This document shows, one piece after another, positions 39,796 through 49,522 of a stretch of 64,000 nucleotides of DNA. Made by a program: the position numbers and the translations under genes. The stretch spans positions 1 through 64,000 of the forward strand of contig NZ_JACRTC010000005.1 of assembly GCF_014385095.1 (NCBI RefSeq), given 5' to 3'. The notes under the pieces are model-generated. The model worked only from the letters and a program-made list of their open reading frames with translations. It ran no database searches and was not told the DNA's origin. Source of the DNA: Zongyangia hominis. GTDB lineage: Bacteria; Bacillota; Clostridia; Oscillospirales; Ruminococcaceae. The first letter of the stretch is position 1. Each line of letters opens with the position of its first letter.

Positions 39796-40174
39796 TTAGC
39801 CCAAGCTGTCGATAATTTCTTTGCCAAAGCGTTTTTTGAGGACGGTGACCGCCTTCTTTTCGATGCGCGATACATAAGAGCGGGAGATGCCCAGCTTCTT
39901 GGCCACTTCCCGCTGGGTGAGGGGAATCCGGTTGCCCAGGCCGTAGCGCATGACGATGATCTGCTTCTCCCGATCATCCAGGGATTCGCCGATATACTTA
40001 TAGAGCTTCTCCGATTTGAGCTTTAAATCGATGCTGTCAAACACGCTGATGTCGTCGGACACAATGTCCATGAGCGTCAGGCTGTTTCCGTCCTTGTCGG
40101 TGTCGATAGGGTCGGAAATATAGACATCCTGGGCGGACTTCTTTAGGTTGCGAAAGTGCATGAGGATTTCATTT
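39796..40174 (-). CDS. sigK: RNA polymerase sigma-K, C-terminal piece (split gene)
   Basis: Encodes the last 125 residues of sigma-K, from NEILMHFRN onward: the rest of region 2, region 3, and region 4 with ESLDDREKQIIVMRYG and the helix-turn-helix TQREVAKKLGISRSYVSRIEKKA. A stand-alone ORF begins at ATG 40161 (121 residues), as in B. subtilis spoIIIC. The upstream codons GCA-AAT-GAA show that the gene is interrupted at IE|NE, the same codon position as the B. subtilis skin element. It is rejoined to the middle piece (43911-44047) when element 1 is excised in the mother cell. Confidence 0.95.
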
Positions 40175-40186
40175 GCTATCCCCCCT
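40160..40186 (-). other. Attachment site, element 1 / 3' sigK piece
   Basis: Junction with core AAA at 40172-40174. The TGA that ends the recombinase ORF (40169-40171) is sigK sequence. Confidence 0.85.
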
Positions 40187-41794
40187 TGATGGCAACATGC
40201 CCGCCGGAAAGAGGGTGAGCCGCTCGCCGTCCCACTGGGCCCGGGAAAAGAGGGTTTGCATCGCCTCCCGTCTTTCGAGGGGGGAGAGGCGGGCGCCCCA
40301 CCCGGATAAGGAGAGAAGGGGGAAGTGGCTTACGAGGGCTGGAGGGGCAGCGTCCGGTGTCTTGGACTCCCTTTCTCTCCCTGTTGCGCCGGAAGGGCAA
40401 GGACTCTCCCCACGTAGCGGGAGGACGCCGCCAGCTTTGTGCGCCGTGCTGAGGTTGCAGACCCCGCCCGGCGGGGCCAGCGGCGCGCCGGACACCCCAC
40501 GGCCCGGCGGGCCGGGATGAGAAGCGCGGTCCAGCTGGGCCCGGGCCTTGGCCCGGGCGGCCAGCAAGTAGGAAATGAGGGCGGCGGGGTCCTCCGCGAT
40601 TTGCACAACCCGGTGCCAGACCGCCTCGTCCAGGGCCTGGCCCGGCGCGTTTTTGACGGTGCACCCACCCGAACGCTCCTTCTCCCGGCATAGGTAGTAG
40701 AAGACGTCCCGGCCCGCCTGATCCCGCCGTCCCGTTTTTTTGGCACGCAGGGGACTGCCGCACCCGGCGCAGAAGAGGATCCCCGAGAGAAGGGGCGGGG
40801 CGTTCTCACGGCTAGTGGGGCGGCCACGGGGCGGGGCGGAGAGCAGGCGTTGGACGCGCAGCCACATTTCCCCGGGCAGGACGGCGGGATGCTCCCCGGG
40901 GGCAACGATCCATTCCTCACAGGGACGGATCTGCACGCGTCGTCCCTTTTCCTGGCGGGTTTTGTTGTAGACCATGAGTCCCCGAGCGCCGTCATAGTCC
41001 TCCTTTTGGCCGCTGCACTGCGCGCCCCGGGTCTCAAAATAGCGGTAGGTGTTCTCGTCCGCCGCGGCGTAGACAGGATTTACGAGCATTTGGCGCAGGG
41101 CGTCCCGCCGGAGAGGCCGTCCCCGGCGGCTGAGAATACCCTCTCCCCGGAGGCGCTCTTCCAGCAGGGTGATCGAGCCGCACGCGAGAAAGCCACGGTA
41201 AACCCGCCGTACCAGGTCGATTTCCTCCGGCACTGGGGTCAGGCGGCAGAGCCGCCGGGTCTTGCCGTCCTCCCCCTGGTATGCCACCATCTGGGAGGCA
41301 AAGCCGGTGGGTGTCACTCCGCCCAGCCACCTTCCGGTCCGGGAGAGCTCCAGCATGTTGTCCCGGATGCGCTCGGCAATGGTCTCCCGCTCCAATTGGG
41401 AGAAGACCGAGGCGATGTACATCATGGCCCGGCCCAGGGGGGAGGAGGTGTCAAACTGCTCCTTGATGGAGACAAAGGCGATGGAGAGGCTCCCCAGCTC
41501 CTCGATGAGCCGGGCGAAGTCGCCGATGTTTCGGCTGACCCGGTCGAGACGGTAGCAGACAATCACGTCGAAACGTCGGCGGCGGGCGTCCTCCATCATG
41601 GCGAGGAACTGGGGGCGGCGGGTGTTGCCGCCGGAAAAGCCCTCGTCCTCATAGAGAAGCAGGTCTTCCGCCCGCAGCCCCTCGTAGTGGCCGAGGCAGT
41701 ATTTGCGGCACAGCTCAATCTGGTTTTCGATGCTTTCTCCCTGGCCGGTGAAACGGGATTTCCGGGAATAGACGGCGATGATGGGGCACTGCAA
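40169..41794 (-). CDS. spoIVCA: Large serine recombinase of element 1 (SpoIVCA type)
   Basis: Large serine recombinase of 541 residues. The resolvase domain starts IIAVYSRKSRFTGQGESIEN with nucleophile Ser13; VCYRLDRVSRN carries the catalytic arginines. The recombinase domain follows (PVPEEIDLVRRVYRGFLACG), then a zinc ribbon (FCAGCGSPLRAKKTGRR with a later YLCREKERSGGC). The start is TTG at 41794, 8 nt after GGGAGG; the open frame upstream has no SD. The C-terminal part is Pro/Gly-rich. Its stop codon lies on the sigK side of the junction, so in the excised circle the ORF would gain 34 residues. Predicted to excise the element late in sporulation. Confidence 0.9.
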   Translation of the reverse strand: MQCPIIAVYSRKSRFTGQGESIENQIELCRKYCLGHYEGLRAEDLLLYEDEGFSGGNTRRPQFLAMMEDARRRRFDVIVCYRLDRVSRNIGDFARLIEELGSLSIAFVSIKEQFDTSSPLGRAMMYIASVFSQLERETIAERIRDNMLELSRTGRWLGGVTPTGFASQMVAYQGEDGKTRRLCRLTPVPEEIDLVRRVYRGFLACGSITLLEERLRGEGILSRRGRPLRRDALRQMLVNPVYAAADENTYRYFETRGAQCSGQKEDYDGARGLMVYNKTRQEKGRRVQIRPCEEWIVAPGEHPAVLPGEMWLRVQRLLSAPPRGRPTSRENAPPLLSGILFCAGCGSPLRAKKTGRRDQAGRDVFYYLCREKERSGGCTVKNAPGQALDEAVWHRVVQIAEDPAALISYLLAARAKARAQLDRASHPGPPGRGVSGAPLAPPGGVCNLSTAHKAGGVLPLRGESPCPSGATGRERESKTPDAAPPALVSHFPLLSLSGWGARLSPLERREAMQTLFSRAQWDGERLTLFPAGMLPSRGDSK

Positions 41795-41893
41795 GGGGCA
41801 TGCCTCCCTTCGTCTTAAACCTATGCGATATGGCTTGTACGGCATGCCCGCCGCCTGGGACGCATAGGATGAAGGGAAGGGGAGGGGTGCGTC

Positions 41894-42076
41894 TTGGAAA
41901 TTCTCATTTCCGGCTGGGAGGACGAGGAAATCCGCGAGAAACTCAGCCTTGCGGCCGGGCGGCTCCACGGACAGTGGCTGTGCGAGAGGCTCGAAGAGCT
42001 GGAGCCGGAGGAGAGGATGCACCTCATCGACTCCCTGCTCGCGGTCCTGGACGCGGAAAAACCGCCATCCGCATAG
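41894..42076 (+). CDS. Small protein of element 1
   Basis: ORF of 60 residues starting at TTG behind GGGGAGGGG. The product is acidic and helical (start MEILISGWEDEEIREKL, later LCERLEELEPEERMHLID). It is divergent from the recombinase and its stop lies inside a terminator stem. I do not recognise it. Its position next to a serine recombinase makes a recombination directionality factor or a regulator conceivable, but that is inference only. Confidence 0.5.
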   Translation: MEILISGWEDEEIREKLSLAAGRLHGQWLCERLEELEPEERMHLIDSLLAVLDAEKPPSA

Positions 42077-42095
42077 CGCGGACGGCGGTTTTTTT
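42057..42095. terminator. Bidirectional terminator inside element 1
   Basis: Stem AACCGCC-ATCCGC / GCGGAC-GGCGGTT with T-tracts on both strands; serves the small plus-strand gene and sufB on minus. Confidence 0.88.
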
Positions 42096-42100
42096 ACTCG

Positions 42101-43018
42101 TTATTTGAGGAAACCCTCGATGATTTTGGCTTCGGCTTCCTCTTCCGTGAGCCCCAAAGTCATGAGCTTGGTAATTTGCTCACCGGCGATTTTGCCGATG
42201 GCCGCCTCGTGGATAAGGGCGGCGTCCACATGGTTGGCGGTCAATTCCGGGATGGCGCTGACGACGCCATGGTCCATGATGATGGCGTCGCACTCCGAGT
42301 GGCCGGTGCAGGCGCAGTTGCCGTAAATTTTGGAGCGGAAGACCTGATGGGAGCGGCCCTTGGCTACCGAGCGGGAGATGAGATCCACCCCCGAGCCGTC
42401 GCCGTCAAGTTCCACCTCAAAGTCGGTTTCGGCGGTCTGATCGCCGTGGGTCATGATCTTTTCCTTGATGAGAAGCCGGCTCCCCGCGGCCAGCTTGCCC
42501 CGGGTGACCCGGCGGGTGGAATCGACCCCCTTCATCTGGACCGTGTCCATCTCCAGGGAGCCGCCCTCGGCGATCTCGATGTAGGTTTGGGGGTTGATAA
42601 TCCGTTTGCCGGTGCCCTCGCCGATGCCGATGTGTTTTTCCACATACCGCACATGGGCGCCTTTTTGGAGGAAGAAGCGGTGGATGCCGTTGTGCTGGGA
42701 GGATTCCTCCCCCTCGGTGTGGACGCCGCAGCCGGCGATGATGGTGACGTCGGCGTTTTCGCCCACGTAGAAGTCGTTGTACACCAGATCGTCCACATCG
42801 CTGTGGGTGACGCAGGCGGGAATGTAGACGTTTTCCCCCTGGGTGCCGGGTTTAATGAGAATGTCGATGCCGGGCTTACCCATTTTGGGCGTGATCTCGA
42901 TTTGATCGGTAGACTGACGCCCGGCGCACGCGCCGTCTTCCCGGATATTGTAGGCGCCGTCTGGGGCGCCGAAAAGATCGGACACGAGGCCAAGGAGCTG
43001 TTGGGTGATATTTTTCAT
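42101..43018 (-). CDS. sufB: SufB/SufD-family Fe-S assembly protein (minimal SUF type)
   Basis: Scaffold subunit of 305 residues, shorter than E. coli SufB (about 495) and matching the single SufB-like protein of two-gene minimal SUF systems. The C-terminal beta-helix core is recognisable: NGIHRFFLQKGAHVRYVEKH, then VFRSKIYGNCACTGHSECDA, and the conserved HEAAIGKIAGEQITKLMTLG end that contacts SufC. CACTGHSECD contains the probable cluster cysteines. It is three bases behind sufC. Striking because it lies within a sigK-interrupting element. Confidence 0.9.
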   Translation of the reverse strand: MKNITQQLLGLVSDLFGAPDGAYNIREDGACAGRQSTDQIEITPKMGKPGIDILIKPGTQGENVYIPACVTHSDVDDLVYNDFYVGENADVTIIAGCGVHTEGEESSQHNGIHRFFLQKGAHVRYVEKHIGIGEGTGKRIINPQTYIEIAEGGSLEMDTVQMKGVDSTRRVTRGKLAAGSRLLIKEKIMTHGDQTAETDFEVELDGDGSGVDLISRSVAKGRSHQVFRSKIYGNCACTGHSECDAIIMDHGVVSAIPELTANHVDAALIHEAAIGKIAGEQITKLMTLGLTEEEAEAKIIEGFLK

Positions 43019-43021
43019 AGC

Positions 43022-43750
43022 TTACGCCTCCTCCAGTTTCGGGCAGAATTGGCATTTGTCGTCCCCGAGCAGGGTGGGGAGAATTTCGTCCCGGGGGCCG
43101 TGAGCGGTGATGACGCCGCCGGAGAGGACCACGATCTCGTCGGCGATACCCAGAATCCGCTCCTGGTGGGAAATGATGACGATGGAGCCGCGGATTTCCC
43201 GGCGCATGCGCTGGAAGACGTCGATGAGGTTATTAAAGCTCCACAAATCGATGCCCGCCTCCGGCTCGTCGAAGATGGTGAGTCTGGTTTTGCGGGCCAT
43301 GACCATGGCGATTTCAATGCGCTTGATCTCGCCCCCCGAGAGGCTCGCGTTGATCTCCCGGTCAATATAGTCCTTGGCGCACAGCCCCACGTCCCGTAGA
43401 TATCCGCAAAGCTGCTCTTCCTCTATTTTTTCACCGGCGGCCAGCTCCACCATATCCCGTACCGTGATGCCCTTAAAACGCACCGGCTGTTGGAAGGCAA
43501 AGCTGATCCCCAGTTTGGCTCTCTCCGTGATGCCAAGGCCCGTGATGTCCTGGCCGTCAAAGAAAATCTGTCCCTCGGTGGGAGGGTTGATGCCCGCCAC
43601 CACCTTGGCAAGGGTCGACTTACCGCCGCCGTTGGGTCCGGTGATGACCACGAATTTGCCGTCGTCCACCGTGAGATTGACGTTTTTGAGAATCCCCTTT
43701 TCGCCGTCTTCCCCCGCAACGTCCACGGATATATGTTTCAGTTCCAGCAT
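43022..43750 (-). CDS. sufC: Fe-S cluster assembly ATPase SufC
   Basis: ABC-type ATPase of 242 residues, partner of SufB. Walker A is ITGPNGGGKSTLAK, the Q-loop FAFQQPVRFKG, the signature INASLSGGEIKRIEIAMVM, Walker B TIFDEPEAGIDLW and the switch His in VIISHQ. It energises iron-sulfur scaffold assembly. An in-frame ATG at 43765 is less likely because GGGAG lies 8 nt before 43750. A minus-strand -10 TATAAT lies at 43805-43810, inside the element, so the pair is expressed independently of sigK. Confidence 0.95.
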   Translation of the reverse strand: MLELKHISVDVAGEDGEKGILKNVNLTVDDGKFVVITGPNGGGKSTLAKVVAGINPPTEGQIFFDGQDITGLGITERAKLGISFAFQQPVRFKGITVRDMVELAAGEKIEEEQLCGYLRDVGLCAKDYIDREINASLSGGEIKRIEIAMVMARKTRLTIFDEPEAGIDLWSFNNLIDVFQRMRREIRGSIVIISHQERILGIADEIVVLSGGVITAHGPRDEILPTLLGDDKCQFCPKLEEA

Positions 43751-43899
43751 ATTTTTTTCTCCCATTTCTGATCAGAACGTCAGTTTTGTAAATCTTGCCT
43801 TTTTATTATACCACGAAAATACAAAAAACGAAGGTGTAGGCCTCTTTTTTCACAATAAATACACAATATTTGTATACAAGGCAAAATGTGGCGCATTGG

Positions 43900-43922
43900 C
43901 GGGGATTGCTTTTTCAATACAG
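43900..43922 (-). other. Attachment site, element 1 / middle sigK piece
   Basis: Junction within the A-run of TATTGAAAAAGCAATCC on minus (43910-43914). Confidence 0.85.
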
Positions 43923-44047
43923 CGCGCCGCATAGGTGGCAAACCGGGTCCCCTTAGTGTAGTCGAAGGTGGACACGGCCTTGATGAGGCCGATGGTGCCG
44001 ATGGAGATCAGATCGTCCTGGTCCTTGTAGTTGGCGTAATACTTCTT
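43911..44047 (-). CDS. sigK: RNA polymerase sigma-K, middle piece (split gene)
   Basis: Encodes 44 residues of sigma-K region 2, from [20 protein letters not shown] to TYAARCIE. An ORF track through it opens at 44062 with element-derived MLSPL and runs on after RCIE into element-derived codons to 43850, so neither end is native. The core-binding helix [15 protein letters not shown] is intact. This piece is flanked by both elements and cannot be translated as sigma factor until both are removed. Joined to its neighbours it restores regions 2.1-2.4. Confidence 0.92.
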
Positions 44048-44056
44048 TAACGGTGA
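44034..44056 (-). other. Attachment site, element 2 / middle sigK piece
   Basis: Minus strand ACCGTTAAAGAAGTATTACG; the 5-bp core AAGAA (44043-44047) is shared with the other end at 49323-49327. Confidence 0.85.
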
Positions 44057-44170
44057 TAGCAAAAGGAGAAAAAGGCCGAAAAGCCGGGGGACAAGCCTGG
44101 CTCCGGGATTTGAAGCGAAATCACGCTCTTACGCTGATTTTTCTTCCTTCCTCATATGATTTTAGGTGAT

Positions 44171-44219
44171 AAAAGGAAAGGAAGCAATGGGCTGCAATCG
44201 CTCATTGCTTCCTTTCCTT
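44171..44219 (-). terminator. Terminator of the DUF255 gene
   Basis: Sixteen-bp stem AAGGAAAGGAAGCAAT / ATTGCTTCCTTTCCTT with a 15-nt loop, T-run on minus. Confidence 0.85.
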
Positions 44220-44247
44220 GCTCCGGCGGATTTTTTAAGGCGAATCG

Positions 44248-46245
44248 TCAAATTTTCTCCAGCATTGCTTTCACCTGCGCGATGCTGTCCACCGGCTGGG
44301 CGCATGCTCCGTTTTGACAGAGATAATATCGGACGCCCTTTTCCGGAATGGGATAAGATTCCGTAAAAGGGACGAGCTGGCCCAAGGCTTTCGCAGTCTC
44401 CGGCGTTTTTACCAGCACCGTCATTGCAGGGCGGGAAGCCTCCCGCAGAAAGGCGGTCAGTTCAGCGGGCACTTCCTGCGAGGCGCAGACCAGTTCCGCC
44501 GAGGGCCACAACTCTTCTAAGAACGCCAGCATGGCAAAGCCATACCCGGCGGGGTATTCTTGGACAGCGCCCGCCAAATAGGCCAACTGCAAGTCGGCGG
44601 CGGTACGCCAGCGGCTTTCTCCGGTGAGCCGGGCCAGGCGCGAGAGCACCAGCGCCGCCACCGAGTTCCCCGACGGCATAGCACCGTCGTAAGTTTCTTT
44701 CGTCCGGGTAATGAGCTGTTCCCCCTCCGAGGCATAGGGATAAAATCCGCCGTTTTTCTCGTCGAAGAATTGTTCATACATCCGTACCGTCAAACGCCGG
44801 GCCTCCGCTAAATATTGGGTTTGGAATGTTGCATCATAGAGTTTCAGCAGACCCCAAGAGTAGAAGGCATAGTCGTCCAGCTTTCCGGGGTGGGCCGCCT
44901 GCTCCTCCCGCCATCTTGCCAGCAGGCGGCCACTGTTATCGGTGAGTTTCCTTTTTATAAAATCCACCGCCCGCATGGCGGCGTCCAGATACCGAGGTTC
45001 GTCCAACGCCAGTCCCGCATGGGCCATCGCCGCGATCATCAGACCGTTCCAGGCGGTAAGAACCTTGTCGTCCCGATGGAGTTGGGTTCTGCCTAAACGG
45101 TAAGCATACACCTTCTCACGCAAACATTTCATGCGTTCCGGTTCCTGATCGATCTGTTCTTGCGCGATGAGATTGAGGATAGTTTTGCCCTCAAAATTTC
45201 CTGACGGGGTCACGCCGTACCAGCGGCAAAAGATATCCGCGTCCCGTGGCTCGAGCAAATCTTTTAGTTCATCGGGAGTGAACACGTAATATTTTCCCTC
45301 CACACCTTCACTGTCCGCGTCCTGCCCGCAGTAAAAACCACCCTGTGGATCGGTCAGTTCCCGGAGGACGTAGTCCAGAGTGCGGCGCACGATTTCCGCA
45401 TAGAGGGGGCGGCGGGTCTCTTGATAAACTTCGGTATAGGCCAGAGCCAGAAGCGCATTGTCGTAGAGCATCTTTTCAAAATGAGGCGCCAGCCACTTTT
45501 TATCGGTAGAGTACCGGGCAAAGCCGCCGCCCACGTGGTCGAACAGGCCGCCCCGGTACATCGCTTCCAAAGTCTGTTCCGCCATCTCACGGGCGTGGCG
45601 ATCCCCCGTGCGTTGGGCATATCGAAGCAGGAAAATTAAATTGTGGGGCGTGGGGAATTTTGGAGCGCGCCCAAATCCGCCCCAGCGTGCATCAAAGCTC
45701 TGGGCGTAGAGACTGACCGCCTGGCGCACCAGTCCACGGTCGGGAACGCCGCCGCTTGCTTCCTCCGTTCTTTTGAGGTGGGCGGTCAGCTCCGCCCCGG
45801 CGGCAACCAGACTTTCCTTGTCCTCCCGCCACAACTGCGCGGCCTGCGACAGCAACGACAATAGCTGCCGCTTCGGTAAATATGTGCCCGCCCAGAAAGG
45901 ATTTTGTTCCGGAGTGAGCAACACCGTAAGCGGCCAGCCGCCCGAGCCTGTCATGGCGGTGCAGGCGGCCATATAGACCGCGTCCACATCCGGGCGCTCC
46001 TCTCGGTCCACCTTGATGGGGATAAAATCCTGATTGATGGCCTCCGCCACGGTTTGATCCTCAAAGGATTCATGCGCCATGACATGGCACCAGTGGCAGG
46101 TGGAGTAACCGATGCTGAGAAACACCGGCTTATCCGCCTGTCTAGCCGCTTGGAATGCTTCTTCTCCCCAAGGCCGCCAGTCTACGGGGTTTTCCCGGTG
46201 CTGGAGAAGATAAGGGGATTTTTCAAATTGCAGCCAGTTGGGCAT
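44248..46245 (-). CDS. Thioredoxin-domain DUF255 protein (YyaL/SSP411 family)
   Basis: Protein of 665 residues. Residues 1-160 are a thioredoxin-like domain starting [15 protein letters not shown] with the diagnostic [16 protein letters not shown] motif. The rest is an alpha-alpha toroid of the N-acylglucosamine-2-epimerase type ([17 protein letters not shown], then [17 protein letters not shown]). The family is widespread but its role is not settled. It is cargo of element 2 and would be lost from the chromosome of the mother cell on excision. Confidence 0.9.
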
Positions 46246-46275
46246 ATACGTTTCCTCCTATGACCGGGCAGCGCA

Positions 46276-46875
46276 TCACCGCCCGCATTTTTCTATAAAG
46301 CGTTGGACCTTTCCCTCTTCCGTCGCCAGGTTGCTGTGGAGCCGCCCCATCAGATCACAGAGACCCAGTAGGGCAACCTCCTCCACATCGGTGCGCTTCT
46401 TCATACCCTTCACATCTGCGAAGGGCAAATCTCTTACCACAAATAGGATCTGCATATGGTACCGAATGAGCATACACACCCGCTCGATTAGCATCTTGTC
46501 TGTCAAAAAACCGGATAAAAACCGCCGCGCCAGCGACGCGCCCACCTTTTCGTGGTTATAGGAGGTGATTTTCCCCCGTCTGACGCGCGTCGTATCAGGT
46601 TTCCCAATATCATGGAGCAGCGCGGCCCACATCAGCGCCTCGGGATATTTACTCTCTCCCCGCCGTTTCGCCGCCTGGTCTATCACCAGCATCGTGTGAT
46701 TCCAGACATTCCCCTCCGGGTGGTGAACCGGCGACTGCTCTGTGGTTTTCAGGCGCCAAAGCGGTGCAAACTCCGGGGGGAGGGGGCGGTCAAAGAGCTC
46801 TTCCAACGCCTGGCTGGGCTGGACATCCTCCATCAAATGGCGTTCTATCTGCCGAAATATCTCCGTGGACGTCAT
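46276..46875 (-). CDS. HD-domain phosphohydrolase
   Basis: HD-domain protein of 199 residues, related to tRNA nucleotidyltransferase-associated HD proteins. The metal-binding residues are in VWNHTMLVID, LLHDIGKPDT and SYNHEKVGA. It likely hydrolyses a nucleotide or nucleic-acid end; the substrate is unknown. GGAGG 8 nt before the ATG at 46875 decides against the upstream frame from 46971. The ATG overlaps the stop codon of the DUF1801 gene (ATGA), so the two are coupled. Confidence 0.82.
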   Translation of the reverse strand: MTSTEIFRQIERHLMEDVQPSQALEELFDRPLPPEFAPLWRLKTTEQSPVHHPEGNVWNHTMLVIDQAAKRRGESKYPEALMWAALLHDIGKPDTTRVRRGKITSYNHEKVGASLARRFLSGFLTDKMLIERVCMLIRYHMQILFVVRDLPFADVKGMKKRTDVEEVALLGLCDLMGRLHSNLATEEGKVQRFIEKCGR

Positions 46876-47249
46876 ATGGAATTCCTCCAAAAAGTTTTGC
46901 AATCGGCCTTTTCGACACGGTTGCAGACGATGATACGATGTAGCAGCGGGTAGTCCACTTCTTTGTCCCACGGAATGCGAAACAGCATCTTACTCTGCCC
47001 GTAGCCCGCCTGGGTAATTTCCTGTCTGAAATGCTCCATGCCAGCCCGCTCGGGTGAAACGGCCAGGTGCTTGGCGGAAACGCTAAACCCGATGATGAAG
47101 GTGCCATGGTCGGTAAACATGGGCTGGTTCCACGCGATTCTCGGTTCCAGATCAGGGAATGTCAGCCCCACCCAATCCAGCACCTCCGCCGTGCGGTCAC
47201 GGCACTTGGAATTTTCAATTTGCGCCAAATATTCTGCAAAGACGCCCAT
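46872..47249 (-). CDS. DUF1801-family protein (YdhG/frataxin-like fold)
   Basis: Protein of 125 residues of the DUF1801 family: an N-terminal helix (FAEYLAQIENSKCRDRTAEV), then PRIAWNQPMFTDHGTFIIGF and SAKHLAVSPE, typical of YdhG/Fra-like proteins. B. subtilis Fra is a frataxin homologue; many members are unassigned. The start at 47249 follows AAAGGAG; the frame begins at 47288. It is first in a two- or three-gene minus-strand unit within element 2. Confidence 0.82.
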   Translation of the reverse strand: MGVFAEYLAQIENSKCRDRTAEVLDWVGLTFPDLEPRIAWNQPMFTDHGTFIIGFSVSAKHLAVSPERAGMEHFRQEITQAGYGQSKMLFRIPWDKEVDYPLLHRIIVCNRVEKADCKTFWRNSI

Positions 47250-47260
47250 ACCGCCCGCTC

Positions 47261-47311
47261 CTTTCTGGAAATACAAAGGCCTTGACAAATAGTCTTTGCA
47301 TTTCCAGAAAG
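47261..47311. repeat. 18-bp inverted repeat
   Basis: CTTTCTGGAAATACAAAG at 47261-47278 and CTTTGCATTTCCAGAAAG at 47294-47311, 17 of 18 bases complementary, with a 15-nt spacer that contains TTGACA. It covers the ribosome-binding region of the DUF1801 gene. Could be an operator or a remnant insertion end. Confidence 0.55.
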
Positions 47312-47456
47312 ATTATCAGCGGCGATTTCATCCCTCCTACCCGAACAGACGCGTGTGGCCTTTGGATTACAGTCAAGCACAAGCCAATAGCTGGCCTACT
47401 GATGATGAAATTAAAATTTGGAATGAGAAAGATGAGCGCCATGTGTTTATTTAGAT
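47312..47456 (+). pseudogene. Possible C-terminal gene remnant
   Basis: An open plus-strand frame without start ends at TAG 47454-47456 and would encode RRFHPSYPNRRVWPLDY ... DDEIKIWNEKDERHVFI, directly before a terminator. The composition looks coding, but I do not recognise it. It may be the tail of a decayed gene. Confidence 0.3.
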
Positions 47457-47460
47457 AATG

Positions 47461-47490
47461 CCAGACGGCCAAGCCGTCCGGTATTTTTGT
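47461..47490 (+). terminator. Terminator inside element 2
   Basis: Stem CC-GACGGC-CAA-GCCGTC-CGG followed by TATTTTTGTTTT. Confidence 0.75.
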
Positions 47491-47528
47491 TTTCATACCC
47501 TCATATCTTGGAAAAGAGGTGATGCTAT

Positions 47529-47711
47529 TTGGAGAGCGCACAGAGAGAGCTGATGAGCGTCCTGTTAAACCATGTCCACTTGCTTGGACTGATATCGAAA
47601 TCTACCTATTCTCACGCGGAGGATGTGGTGCATTCTATGATAGACTTACCGGAATTTTTCGATTCTTCTGTGTGCTTGACAAAGGAGGGAAGCACGCATG
47701 AATGTACATAG
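47529..47711 (+). CDS. Small protein upstream of recombinase 2
   Basis: ORF of 60 residues starting at TTG after AGAGGTGAT; start MESAQRELMSVLLNHVHLLG, with a predicted helical N-terminal half and C-terminal cysteines. It overlaps the recombinase start by 14 nt, so the two are translationally coupled. It is not similar by eye to the 60-residue protein of element 1. A helper, regulator or directionality factor is conceivable; no family recognised. Confidence 0.5.
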   Translation: MESAQRELMSVLLNHVHLLGLISKSTYSHAEDVVHSMIDLPEFFDSSVCLTKEGSTHECT

Positions 47712-49329
47712 AATACGCAAGGAAATGAGAAACGGGAAGTCCATCTTCGACCTGCCGCTGCGAGTGACCTTCTACGCCAGAGTATCGACAGACAAGGACG
47801 AACAGCGCAACAGCTTGGAAAATCAAGTACAGTATTACACCGAACTGATTCAAAGCAAATTAAACTGGACCTACGTCGAGGGATATATCGACGAGGGGAT
47901 CAGCGGGACAAGTACGAAAAAGCGGGATAGTTTTAATCGGATGATCGCAGACGCCAAAGCGGGACGCTTTGACTTCATCATCACGAAAGAAATATCCCGC
48001 TTTTCCCGTTCTACCCTGGACAGCATCCAGTATACCCAGGAGCTATTGGCGCATGACGTGGGGGTGCTGTTTCAGAACGACAACATCAACACCCTGGACA
48101 GCGACAGCGAATTCCGATTGGTGGTCATGGCCGGCGTGGCCCAAGACGAGGTGAGAAAGCTCTCCGAGCGGCTGAAGTTCGGCTTCCGGCAGGCCATCAA
48201 AAATGGCCATGTGCTGGGCAACGATCAGCTGTGGGGCTACGACAAAAAGGACTGTGTGCTGACCATCAACGAGGAGGAGGCTCGGGTGGTCCGTCGGATC
48301 TTCGATCTCTACGCCAACCAGCAGATGGGCATCCGCCGCATTTCCCAGACCTTGTACGATGAGGGCTTTACCAGTCGAAAGGGCAACGCCTTCAACGTGC
48401 TGACCATCCGGCACATTCTCTGCAATCCCAAATACAAGGGCTGGTATTGCGCCAACAAGTCCCAGACGGTGGACTACCGCAGCAAGCGCAAGATATTCCT
48501 GGACGAGAGCGAGTGGGTTATGTATCCCGATCCTTCCATCCCGGCCATTGTGTCGGAAGACCTTTGGGACCGGGCCCACGCCCTTTACAAGCGCCGCAGC
48601 CGGCAGATGATGTCCCACCAGAGCGCCGCTGAGTTCCACAACCGTTACCCATACAGCGGCAAGATTATCTGCGGGGAGCATGGCGCCAGCTTCCACAGGC
48701 AGGTACTCAAAAGCACCAAGGGGGAAAAGGAGGTCTGGCAGTGCCGGGTGTACCGCAATCGGGGCCGGGCGGCCTGCCCTGCGCCCCAGTTGCGAACCAC
48801 GGAACTGGACCAGATCATGGCTCGAATTTTCGATCAGCTGGCCCAGGATCAACAGGCCATTGTGGACGCGGTGGTAAAGGTCATCCAGTCGGTTCCCGAT
48901 GAGCACGACTATGGCCGGGATGCCTTGCGGATTGAGGAGGACTTGTCCGCCATCCGCGCAAAAAAGGACCGCCTGCTGGAGATGAGTATGGCGCAGGCGC
49001 TCACCATCGAGGAGTTTAAGCGCCGCAACGACAGCTTTAATGAACAGGTGAAAGGGTTGGAGGAACGACTGGAACTTCTAAGATCGGAGGAGCAAAAGGG
49101 GAGGCGCTCTGCTCAACAGCTTCGTAACATCAAAACCGCCCTGGAAGAGGAACTTTCTTTTAAAAACGGGATCAACTCGGCTTTGGTGACCACGATCTTG
49201 GACCACATTGTGGTCAAAAAAGGCAGCACAAAAGAGGAAGTGCGTCTGGAGATCCACCTGAAATTCGGCGGCCCCTTTGGGGTCGTTTTTAACCGGGAAA
49301 ACGCCTCCTTCCGCTTTAACCGTTCTTGA
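47698..49329 (+). CDS. Large serine recombinase of element 2
   Basis: Large serine recombinase of 543 residues. The resolvase domain begins [20 protein letters not shown] with nucleophile Ser30; [15 protein letters not shown] carries catalytic arginines. The recombinase domain ([19 protein letters not shown]) and zinc ribbon (IICGEHG, then [17 protein letters not shown]) follow, then a coiled-coil-rich tail. It belongs to a different branch from recombinase 1. Its stop TGA at 49327-49329 uses two bases of sigK beyond the core; in the excised circle the frame continues for 40 more residues. It is encoded opposite to sigK. Confidence 0.92.
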
Positions 49330-49334
49330 TGATG
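49312..49334 (-). other. Attachment site, element 2 / 5' sigK piece
   Basis: Minus strand CATCATCAAGAACGGTTAAAG; core AAGAA at 49323-49327. Confidence 0.85.
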
Positions 49335-49522
49335 TGGGCTACTAGCCGGAGGTTATGTTCGATGAGTTGGTCCCGGGCCTCTGGATCGCCTTGTGCCATC
49401 CGTTCCAGGCACTCTTGCTCCTCCTTGGCGGAGAGCGGCTTGGGGAAGGTCCCGTTGCCGGTGATGTGCAGCGCGAAGTAGAGCAGATTACAAAGAGCGA
49501 AACAAATGAGCAAGGAATACAT
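49316..49522 (-). CDS. sigK: RNA polymerase sigma-K, N-terminal piece (split gene)
   Basis: Encodes the first 66 residues of sigma-K: a hydrophobic pro-sequence ([20 protein letters not shown]), then [20 protein letters not shown] and the region 1.2/2.1 start [12 protein letters not shown]. The ORF then runs into element DNA (NG, stop). The pro-sequence implies membrane tethering and SpoIVFB-type activation, as in B. subtilis. Shine-Dalgarno AAGGGG lies 9 nt before the ATG. Position 49654-49680 on minus holds GAATATT and CATATGCT, a weak SigE-like promoter. Confidence 0.93.

Follow-up and report, generated by a model that had tools for sequence, protein, structure and literature searches.

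The sigK gene of Bacillus subtilis is interrupted by skin, an element that carries a large serine recombinase (SpoIVCA) and a directionality factor (Skr). Single elements in sigK are known; here we add a sigK gene that is interrupted twice, by members of two site-specific element families. The gene lies in the first 64,000 nucleotides of contig NZ_JACRTC010000005.1 of Zongyangia hominis (the window, the whole stretch of DNA that was analysed). Like the elements of the window, skin splits sigK and brings a large serine recombinase, but it is a single prophage-like element of 48 kb (PMC10745906, PMC13141910), whereas the window contains two small elements without recognisable phage genes. Skr is encoded by a 64-aa open reading frame (ORF) that overlaps the recombinase start by 101 nt (PMC6957869), compared with an overlap of 14 nt for the candidate factor c1 described below. 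In Clostridioides difficile, skinCd also splits sigK and is excised in the mother cell, as we infer for the elements of the window; its excision uses a serine recombinase and a directionality factor (PMC5025042). SkinCd is however a single element, in a gene for a sigma-K without pro-sequence, and it differs from the B. subtilis element (skinBs) in site and has the opposite orientation (PMC5025042). Skin elements in clostridia are described there as an exception.

Island IV in sigK of Bacillus cereus biovar anthracis and gin in gerE of B. cereus are excisable and, like the elements studied here, non-phage-like intervening elements with serine recombinases (PMC10745906, PMC5595907), but there is one element per gene, and hosts and cargo are different. 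More than one recombinase-bearing element per gene has been described for the heterocyst elements of cyanobacteria, in 10 of 87 interrupted genes and with four elements in one nifD (PMC4874684). Those elements interrupt nitrogen-fixation genes and belong to another differentiation, in contrast to the sigK of an Oscillospirales-type genome, and the parallel is one of mode of action only. We found no sigK with two elements reported in the accessible literature, which was mostly without subscription papers.

The split sigK gene

An earlier note on this DNA had claimed three pieces of one sigK on the minus strand, in order and in phase. This was borne out by the SigK profile TIGR02846, which matched the pieces in the order N, M, C along positions 49522-39796:

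49316..49522, minus strand: sigK N-terminal piece (N), a 68-aa ORF of which residues 1-66 were used; TIGR02846 positions 6-66, E 1.8e-19, 70.2 bits
43913..44047, minus strand: sigK middle piece (M), sigma region 2, ends RCIE; TIGR02846 positions 66-110, E 5.4e-19, 68.6 bits; Pfam Sigma70_r2
39796..40173, minus strand: sigK C-terminal piece (C), NEILMHF... to stop; TIGR02846 positions 111-226, E 3.8e-41, 141.1 bits; Pfam Sigma70_r4

The piece coordinates first proposed were right to within a few bases; for M we used 43913-44047, as 43911 and 40174 fall inside a 3-base repeat. Joining the pieces by script at the repeats AAGAA and AAA resulted in 708 bases with 235 codons and a single terminal stop, in agreement with the expected continuous SigK of about 235 residues with a pro-sequence. 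The hydrophobic pro-sequence at the start of the N piece was judged by eye from the alignment with intact SigK. The joined pro-sigma-K reached 309.2 bits, above the NCBIfam SigK equivalog cut-off of 298.65, and each piece alone stayed below it. Compared with the intact 233-aa SigK of Youxingia wuxianensis (P0241), 176 of 229 residues were identical (77%) without a gap, through both junctions.

In all three pieces the divergence from relatives was highest at the third codon position (positions 1/2/3: N 0.32/0.22/0.61, M 0.23/0.15/0.51, C 0.41/0.33/0.58). A stop was present in 4 of the 34 alignments of the C piece with relatives, and in none of the N and M alignments. We concluded that the anatomy of the split sigK is secure. 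That two excisions are needed, as the earlier note had reasoned, follows from this anatomy: in a gene split by two elements, both would have to leave before sigK could work.

Two elements, two recombinases and their crossover repeats

The two intervening segments were different elements, as proposed before, each with a distinct serine recombinase:

44048..49322: element 1, 5,275 bp between the junction-1 repeats (by script; same junction in relatives)
47698..49329, plus strand: recombinase 1 (large serine recombinase, 543 aa), whose gene runs a short way into the sigK N piece; Pfam Resolvase, Recombinase, Zn_ribbon_recom
49323..49327, minus strand: junction-1 repeat AAGAA, N side (attL/attR-like), aligned across relatives
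44043..44047, minus strand: junction-1 repeat AAGAA, M side, aligned across relatives
40174..43912: element 2, 3,739 bp between the junction-2 repeats (by script; same junction in relatives)
40169..41797, minus strand (listed ORF from 42022): recombinase 2, large serine recombinase, 541 aa from a TTG start (P0001, 541 aa); Pfam Resolvase, Recombinase, Zn_ribbon_recom
43911..43913, minus strand: junction-2 repeat AAA, M side; the next base is off-family (AAAG vs AATG)
40172..40174, minus strand: junction-2 repeat AAA, C side; the frame of recombinase 2 continues across it

Element 1 is inserted at HIIK|KYY (junction 1) and element 2 at CIE|NEIL (junction 2). Junction 2 presumably resembles the skin site of B. 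subtilis. The crossover codon of junction 1 was constant in the aligned relatives, and its inner arms were inverted repeats by eye; in the window alone these arms gave a p of 0.0017. The junction-2 ends of relatives form, by eye, the palindrome GTGAGGATAGC-AAAT-GCTATCCTCAC. Both elements have the crossover layout of skin-type elements, a short direct repeat followed on the element side by inverted-repeat arms; in relatives the arms are clear by eye.

Both recombinases carry the catalytic motif Y-x-R-x-S. Both recombinase genes end inside sigK (49316-49329 and 40169-40174), and the stop codon of recombinase 2 (40169-40171) is borrowed from sigK's own AATGA. Excision would therefore alter the last codons of the recombinases, and by eye the stop of recombinase 2 would be lost on the circle.

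Recurrence of both elements in related genomes

In a scan of genome contigs with recombinase 1, 80 of 368 confirmed loci were kept, the records being mostly from Oscillospiraceae, Clostridia and relatives. The end of the recombinase 1 gene adjoined a sigK piece in 74 of the 80; two loci ended at a contig edge, and in four (L002, L036, L067, L075) it did not adjoin. The loci had been found by recombinase 1 alone, and the association is far beyond chance. Element 1 occurred in either orientation: its recombinase end faced M in 42 loci and N in 32, and at least 12 changes of orientation were counted on a quick recombinase tree (91 rows).

A sample of 394 genomes was also utilized, in which up to three candidates were scored per genome and 30 loci were fetched. 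All ten relatives at least 60% identical to recombinase 1 adjoined sigK, and none of the 20 fetched relatives below 50% did. Recombinase 2 had matches in 37 of the 394 genomes (E <= 1e-60). Among 30 fetched recombinase-2 loci, 26 adjoined sigK, 25 at the C piece and one at the M piece (L085); the remaining L108, L109, L111 and L112 had no sigK piece within approx. 1.5 kb. The C-terminal SK of recombinase 2 is common to 8 of 11 aligned relatives (window included), and the shared ending suggests that these recombinases sit at this site as well.

Junction 2 was readable in 48 of the 80 recombinase-1 loci, joined in 32 and split in 16. On the recombinase-1 tree, which is not a species tree, this state changed at least 14 times. 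In L148 (the cultured isolate Anaeromassilibacillus sp. An200; also L050) and in L149 the N, M and C pieces were found in order on a single contig. Genome-wide searches with the SigK profile, in 10 and in 14 genomes, gave further separate N, M and C sets, often on different contigs. In a sample of 61 genomes from another group intact SigK and splits at junction 2 only both occurred among the matches listed, and three of 17 retrieved short proteins (P0123, P0124, P0125) resembled frames of M only. Each of the two elements is a member of a recurrent family with its own site in sigK, and since the double split also occurs in other genomes it is not unique to this organism.

Three loci in this set deserve separate mention. 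In G008 (L002) a recombinase 1 relative (86%) is located away from sigK and a full-length SigK-like match covers positions 2-213, a possible intact-sigK comparator. G432 (L036) contained a joined M+C piece plus separate N, M and C pieces, either because it has two sigK genes or because the assembly is mixed. In An200, the second element carries an ORF that by eye resembles chloramphenicol acetyltransferase (L148, 6799-7437, minus strand).

Element 1: a candidate directionality factor and cargo

The remaining ORFs of element 1 were as follows:

47529..47711, plus strand: c1, a conserved ORF of 60 aa that begins with TTG and shares 14 nt with the start of recombinase 1; candidate for a recombination directionality factor
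44248..46245, minus strand: cargo, DUF255 (Thioredox_DsbH) protein; Pfam E 1.8e-69
46276..46971, minus strand: cargo, HD-domain protein; Pfam HD E 3.1e-9
46872..47288, minus strand: cargo, DUF1801 protein; Pfam E 1.2e-12

Relatives of c1 were found in 52 of the 80 recombinase-1 loci and in the window (E <= 1e-3); c1 matched no Pfam family at the cut-off. Upstream of c1, CATA occurred at -36 to -22 in 52 of these 53 sequences (1,000 shuffles: mean 2.1, maximum 9), and an AT-rich -35 region in 41 (shuffles: mean 6.6, maximum 14). CATA is the -10 type of sigma-E and sigma-K. By eye, a similar motif was present upstream of sigK in many relatives. Element 1 probably relies on c1 for directionality, expressed from a promoter of the sporulation type. 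A DUF255 relative was within the fetched flank in 8 of the 80 loci.

Element 2: a recombinase without the usual coiled coil

Besides recombinase 2 the element carries two cargo genes:

43022..43765, minus strand: cargo, SufC-like ATPase; TIGR01978 E 1.6e-39, below the curated cut-off
42101..43018, minus strand: cargo, SufB/SufD-like protein; Pfam SUFBD_core E 9.3e-24

Recombinase 2 aligned with its relatives up to about residue 404 (relatives' numbering) and again at the tail. A frameshift behind the odd tail was rejected, because the relatives align in one frame on both sides. The stretch in between is rich in Gly and Pro (22% G+P, the top value of 93 measurable rows). In the AlphaFold2 model residues 426-493 were unstructured, with a predicted local distance difference test score (pLDDT) of approx. 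31-39, and in the model of the control P0003 long helices were formed by residues 407-455 and 459-490 (block means 81-95); the predicted template modelling score (pTM) was low for both, 0.45 and 0.41. The coiled-coil region was also shortened in P0002, the nearest relative of recombinase 2 (63%), and short in P0008 and P0018 and, by eye, in P0050, P0081 and P0093. Loss of the coiled coil was judged from alignment and models; a pattern-based length measure was artefact-prone (many values of 68) and not all rows were measurable. Alignment and models indicate that recombinase 2 is without the usual coiled coil.

Deletion of the coiled coil allowed LI integrase to recombine attL x attR without a factor (2.2%), whereas phiC31 integrase was inactivated by such a deletion (PMC10754689). 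With these two outcomes, it is by analogy possible that recombinase 2 excises its element without a directionality factor. Two ORFs tried as directionality candidates for element 2 lacked relatives among the fetched loci, in a test that did not extend to an all-against-all search. The 60-aa acidic ORF at 41894-42076 (plus strand), divergent from recombinase 2, was set aside as it had no relative there; it also had no Pfam family. Upstream of several recombinase-2 relatives sigma-A-like sequences were seen by eye.

A SufC/SufB-like pair (58%/65%) was also detected beside recombinase 1 in L079 (6123-7771). Its presence there and in element 2 of the window (42101-43765) means that the pair joined sigK elements at least twice.

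Proposed mechanism and alternative explanations

We consider it likely that two skin-type elements, acquired separately, occupy two fixed sites of this sigK, that both are cut out of the mother-cell chromosome, and that the gene would thereby work as an AND gate at the level of the DNA. Each element would be a small site-specific mobile unit that has short crossover repeats, carries non-phage cargo and encodes a large serine recombinase at one of its ends. In the mother cell each recombinase would join its own pair of ends and two circles would be released; an intact, in-frame pro-sigma-K gene would then be present, and the spore chromosome would retain both elements. Sigma-K would need two DNA excisions and, judged from the pro-sequence, a proteolytic cut. 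Excision of element 1 would be directed by c1 behind its sporulation-type promoter, and that of element 2 by recombinase 2, possibly without such a factor. The excision itself, its timing and the cell type are what we infer.

A wider reading would be that two sigK-specific families, one per site, spread in the Oscillospirales and repeatedly stack as an AND gate, element 1 with a classical recombinase plus c1 and element 2 with a coiled-coil-free excisionase that needs no factor. In this form, shedding of the coiled coil would be possible only because the mother cell never reintegrates the circle. We put this forward tentatively and regard it as rather doubtful.

Several observations weigh against excision of both elements in this organism. 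Among 19 split M ends compared, only the window had AAAG for AATG at junction 2, with the central AA kept, and the junction-2 inverted-repeat arms were not significant in the window alone (p 0.15). The part of recombinase 2 that is rich in Gly and Pro may reflect decay. Upstream of recombinase-2 relatives CATA was a less pronounced signal, present in 13 of 31 against a shuffle mean of 3.5 and maximum of 10, and the region upstream of sigK in the window was by eye without a clear sigma-E-type promoter, unlike that of most relatives. No rejoined form was found, the best full-length match being 77% identical (among 120 listed of 8,000 scored). The exact attP1 and attB1 strings had no match in viral_contigs, which is a weak test. 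The evidence on sigK of the organism itself comes from the 64-kb window, and another intact sigK may lie elsewhere in its genome.

The deviating junction-2 repeat, the Gly/Pro-rich stretch in place of the coiled coil and the lack of a clear promoter would all fit a dead gene, in which a lineage that is losing sporulation gathered two elements in an unused sigK and neither is excised. We judge this unlikely: all three sigK frames and both recombinases are open, the SigK match of 77% runs without a gap, the divergence is biased to the third position, relatives with the same double split retain their frames, and P0002, P0008 and P0018 also have coiled-coil-short recombinases. Still less probable, in our view, is that one element is active and the other fixed, either way round, with sigma-K made from another copy. 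A second sigK outside the window may exist, and the repeat and recombinase of element 2 are odd; in the SigK profile searches of 24 other genomes, however, split genomes mostly had no second full SigK besides a SigE-like match. Exceptions were G008, with its intact SigK-like gene (its recombinase 1 relative is not at sigK), and G432, with M+C joined and separate pieces. A fusion of unrelated contigs inside sigK during assembly is hardly credible. Although P0001 is carried by one contig only (222,074 bases), other assemblies are split at the same codons, two of them with N, M and C on one contig, and at both ends the recombinase frames continue across the repeats into sigK. Excision of both elements is the explanation we prefer.

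Origin and order of arrival

The M region of P0122 was 98% identical to that of the window; it ran unbroken across junction 1, whereas junction 2 was split and had the CIEK variant seen in the window. Recombinase 1 was 91% identical to that of L001, while the CTP synthase of the L001 genome was only 73% identical, as expected of horizontal transfer. To L151 it was 94% identical over 291 residues. The nearest genome was chosen by FTHFS (75% identity, 394 genomes) and CTP synthase (74%, 12 genomes), and in its family recombinase 1 was found at E <= 1e-150 in 1 of 148 genomes. The split pattern of P0122, the recombinase 1 identities and this rarity suggest that element 2 came first and element 1 arrived later, recently, by horizontal transfer.

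A plasmid search gave no near match, and in the phage search the best listed record was 41.6% identical to recombinase 1, so that a phage source was not identified. The Pfam names of the ORFs (DUF255, HD, DUF1801, SufBD core, ABC ATPase and the recombinases) did not show a prophage-like gene content. Independent invasions suffice to explain the arrangement, and no benefit from a double lock is required.

Two site-specific families recur at two sigK codons in many assemblies of Oscillospirales, and it is common for a single gene to carry both. The natural series of genomes with neither, one or both of the elements makes it possible to weigh selected regulation against harmless parasitism as the meaning of developmental DNA excision. 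Surveys of gut bacteria that score sporulation by the presence of genes would miss such a split sigK, and the recombinase predicted to be coiled-coil-free offers a natural test of the model that the coiled coil sets the direction of a serine integrase.

Far from sigK, five tRNA genes (Asn, Met, Trp, Asp, Thr) were clustered at positions 125-599 of the window.

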